This document shows, one piece after another, positions 7,545 through 11,271 of a stretch of DNA of 64,000 bases (positions are counted from its first letter, which is position 1; every line of letters begins with the position of its first letter). Location of the stretch: NCBI GenBank assembly GCA_022560615.1, contig JADFSR010000017.1, forward strand, positions 1-64,000. The letters are read 5' to 3'. The notes beneath the pieces are model-generated. The model was not told the origin of the DNA. It worked only from the letters and a program-made list of their open reading frames with translations, and did no database searches. The position numbers and the translations under genes were made by a program. This DNA is from Gemmatimonadota bacterium (lineage in GTDB: Bacteria > Gemmatimonadota > Gemmatimonadetes > Longimicrobiales > Gaopeijiaceae).

Positions 7545-7560
7545 CCAGGAGGCCGGTCCC

Positions 7561-7953
7561 ATGAATCCGAAGGCACGCGATAGCCATCTTCTCGTCCACC
7601 AGGTCGAGGACGAAATGGTGGTCTACGATCGGACCCAGAAACGGGCTCACCGGCTCAACGAAGCCGTTGCGAAGGTGTGGAGTCTGCTGGACGGGGAGCG
7701 GTCGGTGAACGAGATCGCTGGCGAACTCGAAGTCGACGAAAGCGTCGTCGCCCTAGCGGTCGATGACCTAGCGAACGCCCAACTGCTGGAATCCAGCGAG
7801 CCCCTTTCGGTCTCGAGGCGTTCGGCCCTACGCAGAGTTGCGAGCGCGGCGGCTGTCGGAGTCCTGCTACCTGTTGTGGCGTCCATTCCGGCTCCGTTGG
7901 CTGCGGAGGCGGAGTCGGACGGGGCGATATGCGACGCACCCTGTACTTTTTGA
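7561..7953 (+). CDS. PqqD-family (RRE) protein with Tat-like hydrophobic C-terminal tail
   Basis: Residues 1-80 form a PqqD-like winged-helix RiPP-recognition element (VYDRTQKRAHRLNEAVAKVW, then LDGERSVNEIAGEL and ...VDDLANAQLLE). Such domains bind leader peptides for modification enzymes. The second half is unusual: SRRSALRR, a hydrophobic stretch (VASAAAVGVLLPVVASI), an alanine-rich cleavage-like site, then a short acidic tail ending CDAPCTF. The twin-arginine-like motif is therefore internal, not N-terminal. The start is set by AGGAGG eight bases upstream. It is convergent with an HprK-related kinase gene 13 bases away. PqqD/HprK/nucleotidyltransferase sets are known neighbours, resembling what has been called the HPr-rel-A type system. 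Whether the tail is an anchor or a built-in substrate is unknown. Confidence 0.8.
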   Translation: MNPKARDSHLLVHQVEDEMVVYDRTQKRAHRLNEAVAKVWSLLDGERSVNEIAGELEVDESVVALAVDDLANAQLLESSEPLSVSRRSALRRVASAAAVGVLLPVVASIPAPLAAEAESDGAICDAPCTF

Positions 7954-7966
7954 GAAGGATCTTGCA

Positions 7967-8779
7967 TCAAATTGCGGGGAGGGCTTTTAGTGCATCGAGG
8001 AGGGCCGAAGCCGTTTCACTGGCCTCTCCGCGATCGCCTTCCAGACCTCCGGTGCCCGTGACCGCCTTGGCAAGCACGCTGAGCGCGAACTCCGGTCTAC
8101 TCCGCGCCACTACCGTGTTTTCGAACAGGGCCATCATGGCCCGCGCTTTCGTGATTCGCTGAGGATTCCACGTAGCACCGTCGCGAAACCTCGTGATTAC
8201 GGTAAGACCCATCGGCACGGCGGGCGCCTCCTGCTGACCACCGAGTGCCTCCGCAGTGTGTAGGCGAGGGGGCCCGCCCTCGCGTCGTTGGGACAGAGGT
8301 TTGGGATACGCGTGAACTCGGCCCTCGCGATCCAGGACCGCATATTCGTCCGAAAAGTACTCACCGCCGGCGTTGACCAGGGCCATGACCAGTGAACTCT
8401 TTCCGGTCTCGGTTCGCCCCGGAACTACGACCGCTTGTCCTTTCCATTGCACCACCCCCGCGTGAACGAACAGGAAGTCTCGCGCAGCGAGCGCGACCTG
8501 GAAGTGCATGTCCGATTCGAGCTCGCGACAGACCTGGGAGAGGCTGCGACACGATCCTATGCCGACTCCGTCCCGCGTGAGTCGGTACTTGGTGTGGTCG
8601 GAGACGGACCGAGGTGGAACGCTCTCGACCGAGTAGACCGTGTCGGAATCTTCAGTCGTGATCGGCCGCGCTCGAGGAGGGAGCCGAGGCCGTAGGTCGG
8701 ATGCGAATGACTCGGCTGCCCGAATCGTGATCCGAGCCCCGAAAGCCTCGAAGGCGATGGCGTTGTGCGACGGTGTCAT
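7967..8779 (-). CDS. HprK-related serine kinase-like protein
   Basis: This is a 270-residue protein whose C-terminal half resembles the HPr kinase/phosphorylase fold. It has HAGVV at 106, a P-loop GRTETGKSS at about 121-129, and SDEYAVLD near 146, where HprK has its metal-binding acidic residues. The N-terminal half is an uncharacterised domain. Such HprK-related kinases occur with PqqD proteins and PF14907 nucleotidyltransferases; some lasso-peptide clusters use one to phosphorylate the peptide. No phosphotransferase-system HPr gene is nearby, so a classical carbon-regulation role is unlikely. It is convergent with the PqqD gene and divergent from the methyltransferase-like gene, whose 5' end may overlap its start. 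Confidence 0.8.
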   Translation of the reverse strand: MTPSHNAIAFEAFGARITIRAAESFASDLRPRLPPRARPITTEDSDTVYSVESVPPRSVSDHTKYRLTRDGVGIGSCRSLSQVCRELESDMHFQVALAARDFLFVHAGVVQWKGQAVVVPGRTETGKSSLVMALVNAGGEYFSDEYAVLDREGRVHAYPKPLSQRREGGPPRLHTAEALGGQQEAPAVPMGLTVITRFRDGATWNPQRITKARAMMALFENTVVARSRPEFALSVLAKAVTGTGGLEGDRGEASETASALLDALKALPAI

Positions 8780-8822
8780 ACCTTGGAATCTATCTCAGAC
8801 GGCTTCCGGGCACTCATCGACT

Positions 8823-10025
8823 TTGCGCCAGTCAGAATCCGGGCTTTGGGATCTGCTGGTCGATTTCTATCGCGAGTGACAGCCCGGATGCATGGCGAAG
8901 CGGAAGAGTTCCCCAACGAATAACATCCAACGGCTACCTGGCTGACGTCTATGCGTCCGTCGCCGCCGCGTTCCTCCGAGACTGGTCTCGGGGCGGGGGG
9001 AAAGAAACCTCCCTGATCCTCGAGGTCGGCGGCGGTAGCGGTCTGGTTGCGTGGCTCTTCTTGAATCGTCTTATGCGACGCGACATCAGCCTTCAGGCGA
9101 GGAGATTCCCGACTTCGACTACCTACTTACGGATGCGGCGGCCAGCAACGTGCAAGCTTGGAGCGCGATCCCCCGGCTCCAGCACCTGGTGGAGGTCGGG
9201 CCTCTCGATCTGGGCGTTCTGAAGATTGGTGGAGAGATCGCGGTAGAGAGGTCCTCGTCCACGAACGAGACAGAACTGGACCTCACCGCCCGGCCCGTTG
9301 TTCTCATCGCCAACTATGTGCTGGACTCCGTGCCCTGTGAGATGATTCGAGTCCGTGATGGCAGCGTCTTCCAGGAGCTGATCGCGCTCGAGAGCGAGGA
9401 CCGACAGCACGAGGACGCCGATGATTTCCGAGGGCTGAAGCCCCGGTTCGAGTCACAGGAGCTTCTCCAGCCCTATACAGGGCATGCGGGGGTGAACGAG
9501 GTACTCGATGGCTACCGCGAACTCCCTCGAGAAGCGTGCATTCCCGTGCCCCTCGAAACCATCGCGTTTCTCGAGAACTTTCTGCGCTCCGACTTCCCCT
9601 TCCTCATGCTCGCCGGGGACCTCGCGTACACGACACCCGAGTTCGAGCGGGAGCCGCCCCTCGTCCTTTCCGACTACGTCGCGTGCACCGTCAACTTCCA
9701 CATGCTTGGAAAGATCTTCGAACAATGGGGCGGAGGTACCAGATTCGCACAACACGCCAACGCTCAATTCTTGGAGGAGGAAGCGTCTCGCTTGCTCTTC
9801 GAGCTTCTCGACGGCGAGCCCGGCTATTGGACGGCGATGCCGGGCGCCGACCTCGCGCCCTCCGAGCTCGTTGAGTGGCTTCTCACCGTGGAGGAAGACG
9901 ACTTGCACCTCGACCACATGGTCCTTCGCCTATCGGTGGCGGCCTTCTCACGCTTGGACGCCTCGGAGCACCCCGCCCTAGCTTTACGGGCTCGATCCGA
10001 TCTCTCAGAGGCCGAGGAGACCTGA
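8823..10025 (+). pseudogene. MidA-like SAM-dependent methyltransferase-like gene with two frameshifts
   Basis: Homology-like text is spread over two frames. Frame A reads SGLWDLLVDFYRE to about 8868. A one-base shift is then needed to continue with DSPDAWRSGRVPQRITSNGY and the SAM-binding LEVGGGSG. Near 9095-9105 a second shift returns to frame A with EEIPDFDYLLTDAAASN and VVLIANYVLDSVP, a motif like that of MidA/NDUFAF7-type enzymes. The two shifts compensate (+1 then -1), leaving the 3' two thirds open to the stop. The start is unclear; a TTG is used here. The stop is one base before the nucleotidyltransferase start, implying an operon. This is either a real double lesion or two sequencing errors. 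The family assignment is tentative. Confidence 0.65.
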
Positions 10026-10026
10026 G

Positions 10027-11271
10027 GTGGGTGCCCAACATCTCGACTCGTACCTCTTGACGCAGTGTCTCCGGCGTGGGCCAGACGTGGGCCTTCACTC
10101 CAAGCTTCGCGGGATCAATGTCGAGACATGGCGTGAGCTGGTCGATCGAGCGGCGTGGCATGGCGTGGCTCCACTGCTCTACCACAGACTCGGACTCATT
10201 GAGAATCTTGTGATCCCACCGGAGCAGTTCGCACGGCTTCGCGATCTCTACGTCCACTGTCTCCTGATGAACCGGGTGATCCTGGAGCAGCTCTCGGAGA
10301 TCGTTCGGGAGACGACCGGGGCGGGCTGTTCGGTTCTGTTCCTCAAGGGTGCCTACCTTGCGCATTGCGTCTACGAAGAGGCGGCCCTACGACCGACGGG
10401 CGATATCGATCTGTTGGCGCCGGCCCACGACGCCGAAAGGGTACAGCGCCTCCTCAAGACCCTCGGCTATCGCTACGCCGCAGGGACCGAGGCCATCGAC
10501 TACTCCGGACTCCACCATCTGAGACCGGTATCTAGGGTGGATTCGGTCAACGTCGAGGTGCACCACGACTTGGCGCCTACGGGGGCACCTTTCGTGCACG
10601 ACATCGTCGGCCTATGGGGTAGATCGACCCGCACGCGGGTTGGCGATCTCGACCTTCCTCATCCGGCGCCTGATGACCTCCTGCTTCATGTGTGCACCCA
10701 TGCGGCCTACAACGATGAGTTTCGGCTGGGGCTGGCGGTGGTGTGTGACATCGACGCAGTGGTTCACAGGCTGGGCCACCAGTTGGACTGGGAACGACTC
10801 ATTCAGACCGCTAACTCGGATGGCCGCTCTCACTTCGTGTATGCGGCTCTCCGTCTAGCTCAGGTGCTGCTCGAAACTACGATCTCGGAGAATGTGGTCG
10901 CTTCACTCGACCACGACCAGGCCGACGACGAGGTGTTGGAGGCGGTTGTCGTCTACGTGCTGAGCACTGCCGAAACGTTGCCTACCACGCTCAGGTCCAT
11001 GGGAGAGGTCATGACGGCGAGTGACAAGCTCAAGACGCTATGGCGGGGACTCTTCCCGCCACCGCAGACGCTGCGACGCATCTATCGCCTCAGACCTGGA
11101 ACCAAGCTCCAGTTCCTCTATTACGTTGTCCGGCCTTTGGATCTCCTTCTTCGACGGGGGCGTAAAGTCCTCGGCTTCCTCATCAGATCACCTCGCTCGA
11201 AGCCCGCGCGGGAGAAGGAGCGGCACCGGCGCATGATCCGGGCATGGGCGCAAGGGAAGGCATCCTTCTGA
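10027..11271 (+). CDS. NTP_transf_5-type nucleotidyltransferase family protein
   Basis: This 414-residue protein resembles the uncharacterised nucleotidyltransferase family PF14907. The core includes LFLKGAYLAHCVYEE followed by RPTGDIDLLAPA, the DxD metal site of the polymerase-beta-like fold, then VEVHHDL and the helical C-terminal part (DDLLLHVCTHAAYN, CDIDAVVH). Proteins of this family recur beside PqqD-like and HprK-related genes in peptide-modification clusters. The reaction is not established; adenylyl or uridylyl transfer to a peptide, protein or small molecule is possible. A GTG start one base after the preceding stop suggests co-expression with the methyltransferase-like gene. The C-terminus is strongly basic. 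Confidence 0.8.
   Translation: MGAQHLDSYLLTQCLRRGPDVGLHSKLRGINVETWRELVDRAAWHGVAPLLYHRLGLIENLVIPPEQFARLRDLYVHCLLMNRVILEQLSEIVRETTGAGCSVLFLKGAYLAHCVYEEAALRPTGDIDLLAPAHDAERVQRLLKTLGYRYAAGTEAIDYSGLHHLRPVSRVDSVNVEVHHDLAPTGAPFVHDIVGLWGRSTRTRVGDLDLPHPAPDDLLLHVCTHAAYNDEFRLGLAVVCDIDAVVHRLGHQLDWERLIQTANSDGRSHFVYAALRLAQVLLETTISENVVASLDHDQADDEVLEAVVVYVLSTAETLPTTLRSMGEVMTASDKLKTLWRGLFPPPQTLRRIYRLRPGTKLQFLYYVVRPLDLLLRRGRKVLGFLIRSPRSKPAREKERHRRMIRAWAQGKASF

Follow-up and report, generated by a model that had tools for sequence, protein, structure and literature searches.

Pathways guided by an RRE are normally spotted through a small gene for the precursor next to that of the RRE. Among described systems, the linear polyphosphorylated peptides (LPPs), RiPPs of Bacillota reported in 2026, are phosphorylated by LppK at Ser3, directly after the leader cleavage site (PMC13381572). 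Their core consists of an RRE, an HprK-like kinase, and an NTP-transferase; the RRE is discrete, the precursor is separate and bears a YxxP leader motif, and the pathway has its own SipW-like peptidase and MsbA-like transporter. In the lasso peptide pseudomycoidin, PsmK phosphorylates and PsmN glycosylates Ser (PMC8498205, PMC9266682). There and in paeninodin (PadeK), the HprK-like kinase phosphorylates the C-terminal Ser of the precursor, a nucleotidyltransferase (NTase) homologue is linked to hexose addition, and the lasso clusters encode a cyclase and a B2 protease. In HPr-rel-A systems an HprK-like kinase adjoins a PqqD-like protein, and TIGR04353, a model of 74 positions, includes no tail. 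TbiB1, a discrete lasso RRE, binds a separate leader peptide.

We analyzed a stretch of 64,000 nucleotides from a Gemmatimonadota genome (the window, W) together with loci fetched from relatives (L-numbers). The sources are MAG data, with short contigs at L018, L024, L026, and L027, and genes were delimited without a trained gene caller. A preliminary description had placed a gene for an RRE protein, an HprK-like kinase, a methyltransferase, and an NTase side by side here, and a sequence check found all four in place (Table 1). The kinase gene is convergent with that of the RRE protein and lies on the strand opposite to all other cluster genes, so the genes do not form a single operon. A family scan of the flanking window genes returned a FetA/FetB-like ABC pair, a DAO-like FAD enzyme, a TauD-like enzyme, and a beta-lactamase-like protein. 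As had been claimed before, no radical SAM enzyme, cyclase, lasso protease, or separate precursor gene was seen among the flanking window genes scanned. Neither a macrolactam cyclase nor a B2 protease is among the scanned neighbors, as a lasso cluster would have them, and the same genes include no dedicated SpI-like leader peptidase or MsbA-like transporter. A dedicated peptidase or transporter is likewise absent among the first 25 neighbor families tabulated for the relatives' loci. The window's genome encodes TatC and three S26 signal peptidases, the latter on contigs other than that of the window.

Table 1. Features of the RRE fusion locus, in window positions
Feature	Position	Strand	Remarks
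RRE fusion gene (PqqD/RRE protein)	7561-7953	+	
RRE (PqqD-like) domain	7561-7797	+	Residues 1 to ~79; boundary is that of the confident part of the model
Internal twin-Arg and hydrophobic signal-like segment, RRSALRRVASAAAVGVLLPVVASIPAPLAAEA	7816-7911	+	R86 to A117
Variable tail, ESDGAICDAPCTF	7912-7950	+	Proposed core/mature peptide
Ser119	7915-7917	+	Lies two residues past the signal-peptidase-like site (A-E-A); phosphorylation proposed here
HprK-fold kinase	7967-8779	-	HAG (106-108), P-loop GRTETGKS (121-128), and SDE (143-145) all present
Methyltransferase-like pseudogene	8773-10025 (start approximate)	+	Two reading frames; joint near 9070-9117
PF14907 nucleotidyltransferase (NTase)	10027-11271	+	Conserved D126-I-D128 and KG motifs

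The first of these proteins matches PqqD (PF05402) at 27.8 bits against a cutoff of 23.4, and its N-terminal part is modeled with high pLDDT in the beta3-alpha3 order. Fold and family match together place it among RRE domains, as had been proposed. The top Foldseek matches are RRE-leader complexes of TbiB1, which is thus the closest solved fold, but the window chain runs on into a signal-like segment and a tail. In the fusions, a twin-Arg pair is followed by a hydrophobic stretch (Pro at -6), an A-x-A site, and the tail. The twin-Arg pair is invariant in all 26 aligned family members; the Tat signal model TIGR01409 scores 15.9 bits in the window fusion (cutoff, 16.7) and matches at an E value of ≤0.05 in only 7/26 members. 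Peak hydropathy of the window fusion over 19 residues is 2.04, at residue 93. Judged from these sequence features, the RRE protein itself appears to serve as the precursor, made up of an RRE, a signal-like segment, a signal-peptidase-like site, and a hypervariable tail, which would account for the lack of a separate precursor gene.

An ungapped motif sampler run on 45 fusions from two phyla returned ...P-V-V-x-S-I-x-A-P-x-A-A-x-A-x-(S/T). Ser or Thr stands two residues after the cleavage-like site in 42 of these phylogenetically non-independent fusions, a count that is somewhat optimistic because the retrieval profile spans the signal region and the sampler prefers information-rich offsets. 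Two fusions of L117 without Ser/Thr at this position were nevertheless retrieved, so exceptions are still picked up by the profile. As a crude control, the +2 position was Ser or Thr in 7/63 signal peptides taken from the same loci. Entropy is 0.84 bits at the Ser/Thr column and 2.85 to 3.5 bits over the next three, such that conservation collapses one residue past it. A second Ser/Thr, at motif column 8 within the hydrophobic segment, is conserved nearly as well (41/45 fusions) and could be an alternative target of modification.

Beyond this point the fusions differ widely. Most Gemmatimonadota relatives have Cys-rich tails; those of L016 and L019 are basic (Lys/Arg-rich), and three fusions of L062 to L064 have N/Q-rich ones. 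Some reach about 100 residues or more, whereas the window tail has only 13. The long Cys-rich tails share similar cysteine patterns among relatives, at an identity below that of the RRE part. The DNA of W and L016 is ~81% identical up to about the Ser codon, the tails cannot be aligned, and the genes around them are 81 to 85% identical. Since similarity between the two loci is confined to the cluster genes, this DNA comparison reveals no other conserved precursor gene. L018, whose RRE lies off the contig, diverges from W at the presumed tail end and is 97 to 98% identical elsewhere. Compared with L016 and L018, W has a shorter stretch between RRE tail and kinase (window positions 7950 to 8000) and a kinase C terminus unlike either. 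Given the 13-residue tail and this shortened stretch before the kinase stop, the window copy may be partly decayed.

The window kinase is a divergent HprK relative: its model (pLDDT 91) matches the folds of HprK/P and PEP carboxykinase, its P-loop is present, and its top family match is TIGR04352 (HprK-rel-A; 57.4 bits; E value, 1.2e-15), in agreement with its first annotation. Against PDB sequences, the kinase profile found no more than a weak match, to a phosphate-loop protein. A resemblance to HPr-rel-A had also been suggested; however, both of its models fall far under their curated cutoffs (TIGR04352, 57.4 bits versus 200; TIGR04353, 15 versus 35), so the window set is not a catalogued HPr-rel-A system. 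The NTase was correctly recognized as PF14907-like (172.6 bits; cutoff, 31.2), and residues G100, K107, G108, D126, D128, and H179 are invariant across 16 homologues. In L067 (positions 7545 to 9791), a 749-residue protein carries a PF14907 domain at residues 390 to 641; no Pfam family matches its long N-terminal half. Comparing W with L016, dN/dS is 0.18 for the RRE part and 0.34 for each of the two enzymes; all three are under purifying selection.

The fourth gene had been described as a frameshifted MidA-like methyltransferase. The frameshift is borne out by a tblastn search with the intact L019 homologue, which aligns to frame +3 and then frame +2 of the window; the MidA-like identity fares less well, as PF02636 stays below its gathering cutoff of 23.3 bits both in the window (12.0 bits; E value, 0.14) and in the L019 homologue (17.3 bits; E value, 0.0035). 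This gene was found in three loci only. Its sole intact copy is that of L019; W and L016 carry broken copies, and L018 has none. Its rarity and broken copies rule it out as a core member.

A search with the kinase found matches in 11 of 196 relatives and none in the sole same-genus genome; nearly all of these loci contain the RRE gene and most contain the NTase. Searched independently of the kinase, with the RRE profile, 38 of 395 Gemmatimonadota genomes matched. Thirteen Gemmatimonadota fusion loci came from the RRE profile alone (L060 to L065, L067 to L072, and L077), and a kinase lies within 5 kb in 10 of them and an NTase in 6. Counting all fusions, a kinase is found within 5 kb of 24/27 from Gemmatimonadota and 12/18 from outside the phylum, and an NTase near 17/27 and 4/18, respectively; for some of the outside fusions the fetched stretch holds no kinase. 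Fusions built in the same way are encoded in the genomes of bacterium SZAS-1 and other members of its phylum. The proposed co-occurrence of four families thus stands in two phyla for RRE and kinase, often joined by the NTase, and fails for the methyltransferase. A plasmid search gave one match, on the megaplasmid of Gemmatirosa kalamazoonensis KBS708, a strain whose RRE-tail fusion lies at about NZ_CP007129.1 1040824 to 1041357. At L020 (1008 to 16127) and L021 (224 to 19409), a kinase-RRE-NTase island sits between apparent rpoB/rpoC and rpsL-rpsG-fusA genes, and L061 carries an RRE fusion in comparable surroundings that lack a kinase. Tail-less discrete PqqD genes with HprK-like kinases nearby also occur in the phylum (L073 to L076, RRE near 5.7 to 6.6 kb), an arrangement resembling classical HPr-rel-A.

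Such tail-less pairs (L073 to L075) lend some weight to a different role for the RRE protein, that of a membrane-tethered chaperone whose C terminus is an anchor with an unimportant tail, while kinase and NTase act on a distant precursor; the RRE fold is, after all, that of leader-binding proteins. We nevertheless consider this distinctly unlikely. A chaperone sits poorly with the near-invariant Ser/Thr at +2 and with the long Cys-rich tails, which have similar cysteine patterns among relatives but lower identity than the RRE part, and W and L016 share no other conserved gene. Moreover, two fusions lie near one kinase at L026, L027, L063, and L064, as would be expected of substrates rather than chaperones.

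It is also conceivable, if rather unlikely, that the tail is a surface protein and that kinase and NTase build a phosphate link at the Ser, joining the exported tail to a glycan or capsule. Some loci do have glycosyltransferase or polysaccharide genes as neighbors (Polysacc_synt at L017, PF11397 at L068), LPP clusters likewise occur in capsule loci, and the longest tails would suit such a protein; however, L020 and L021 adjoin RNA polymerase and ribosomal genes instead, and the window tail is very short. That same short tail, the loss or breakage of the methyltransferase gene, and the patchy presence of the kinase among relatives could mark the cluster as a decaying relic without function in the window strain. 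This we regard as quite improbable, since the RRE, kinase, and NTase frames are open, the catalytic motifs are intact, and dN/dS against L016 is 0.18 to 0.34.

We therefore favor, with some reservation, a fused RRE-precursor in which a docking RRE, a signal segment, and a modified, released tail form one chain. Its parts differ in strength. The fusion protein is very probably the substrate, to judge from its sequence, and what the tails and the Ser/Thr column show agrees with the earlier suggestion that the RRE protein itself might present the substrate. From the LPP and pseudomycoidin precedents, taken with the evidence of the locus, we infer the further steps. The N-terminal RRE would be a built-in docking domain, and the kinase would phosphorylate the near-invariant Ser/Thr at +2, Ser119 in the window, which is a reasonably likely site. 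The PF14907 enzyme might then add a nucleotide or sugar to the Ser phosphate; that it acts on the phosphate is close to an even call, leaning slightly toward doubt. Export through the internal Tat-like (or Sec) segment and cleavage by host signal peptidase I after A-x-A would release the tail, tagged near its N terminus; such export and release are probable. That substrate, Ser119, release, and NTase action on the phosphate all hold together is somewhat doubtful.

The likeness to LPPs extends beyond the shared RRE, HprK-like kinase, and NTP-transferase. In both, the Ser concerned lies just past the leader cleavage site, which in the fusions is a predicted one (the LPP core begins AQS, and L016 and L019 read A-Q-S); the counterpart of the polyphosphorylated Ser at LPP core position 3 would be the conserved Ser/Thr at +2. 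Cleavage in LPPs falls to a signal-peptidase-type enzyme, as it probably would in the fusions. Membership among LPPs is ruled out all the same, as the RRE is not discrete and the genes examined around it include no separate precursor and no peptidase or transporter of the pathway's own. The chemistry, previously called undescribed, is not wholly so: pseudomycoidin is a known case of tailoring by a paired HprK-like kinase and NTP-transferase, and the same has been proposed for LPPs (PMC8498205, PMC9266682, PMC13381572). It is possible, and we suggest it tentatively, that the fusions constitute a RiPP class in which the RRE itself is the precursor's leader and a single chain comprises the RRE, an export signal within it, and the core. 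In such a class, one fixed Ser/Thr would be phosphorylated and nucleotidylated or glycosylated before export, a housekeeping signal peptidase would carry out maturation, and disulfide-rich, basic, or N/Q-rich products would be spread over at least two phyla.

No description of an RRE-precursor fusion came up in a phrase search of open-access literature, which is weak evidence of absence. In a 2025 survey of RREs, 21% of PF05402 proteins exceeded the size of a discrete RRE and had no other Pfam domain (PMC12710340); part of these could be RRE-precursor fusions. If so, a precursor hidden within the RRE protein would make clusters look substrate-less and be missed, and HprK-like kinases and PF14907 enzymes lacking a known substrate would gain a specific, testable residue.

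A MauE-thioredoxin-like membrane protein with a CAHC motif is encoded at L065 (7378 to 8298), with homologues in L070, L071, L072, and L077. It thus lies near fusions with Cys-containing tails at five loci, which is suggestive only of a possible disulfide-forming partner for these tails.
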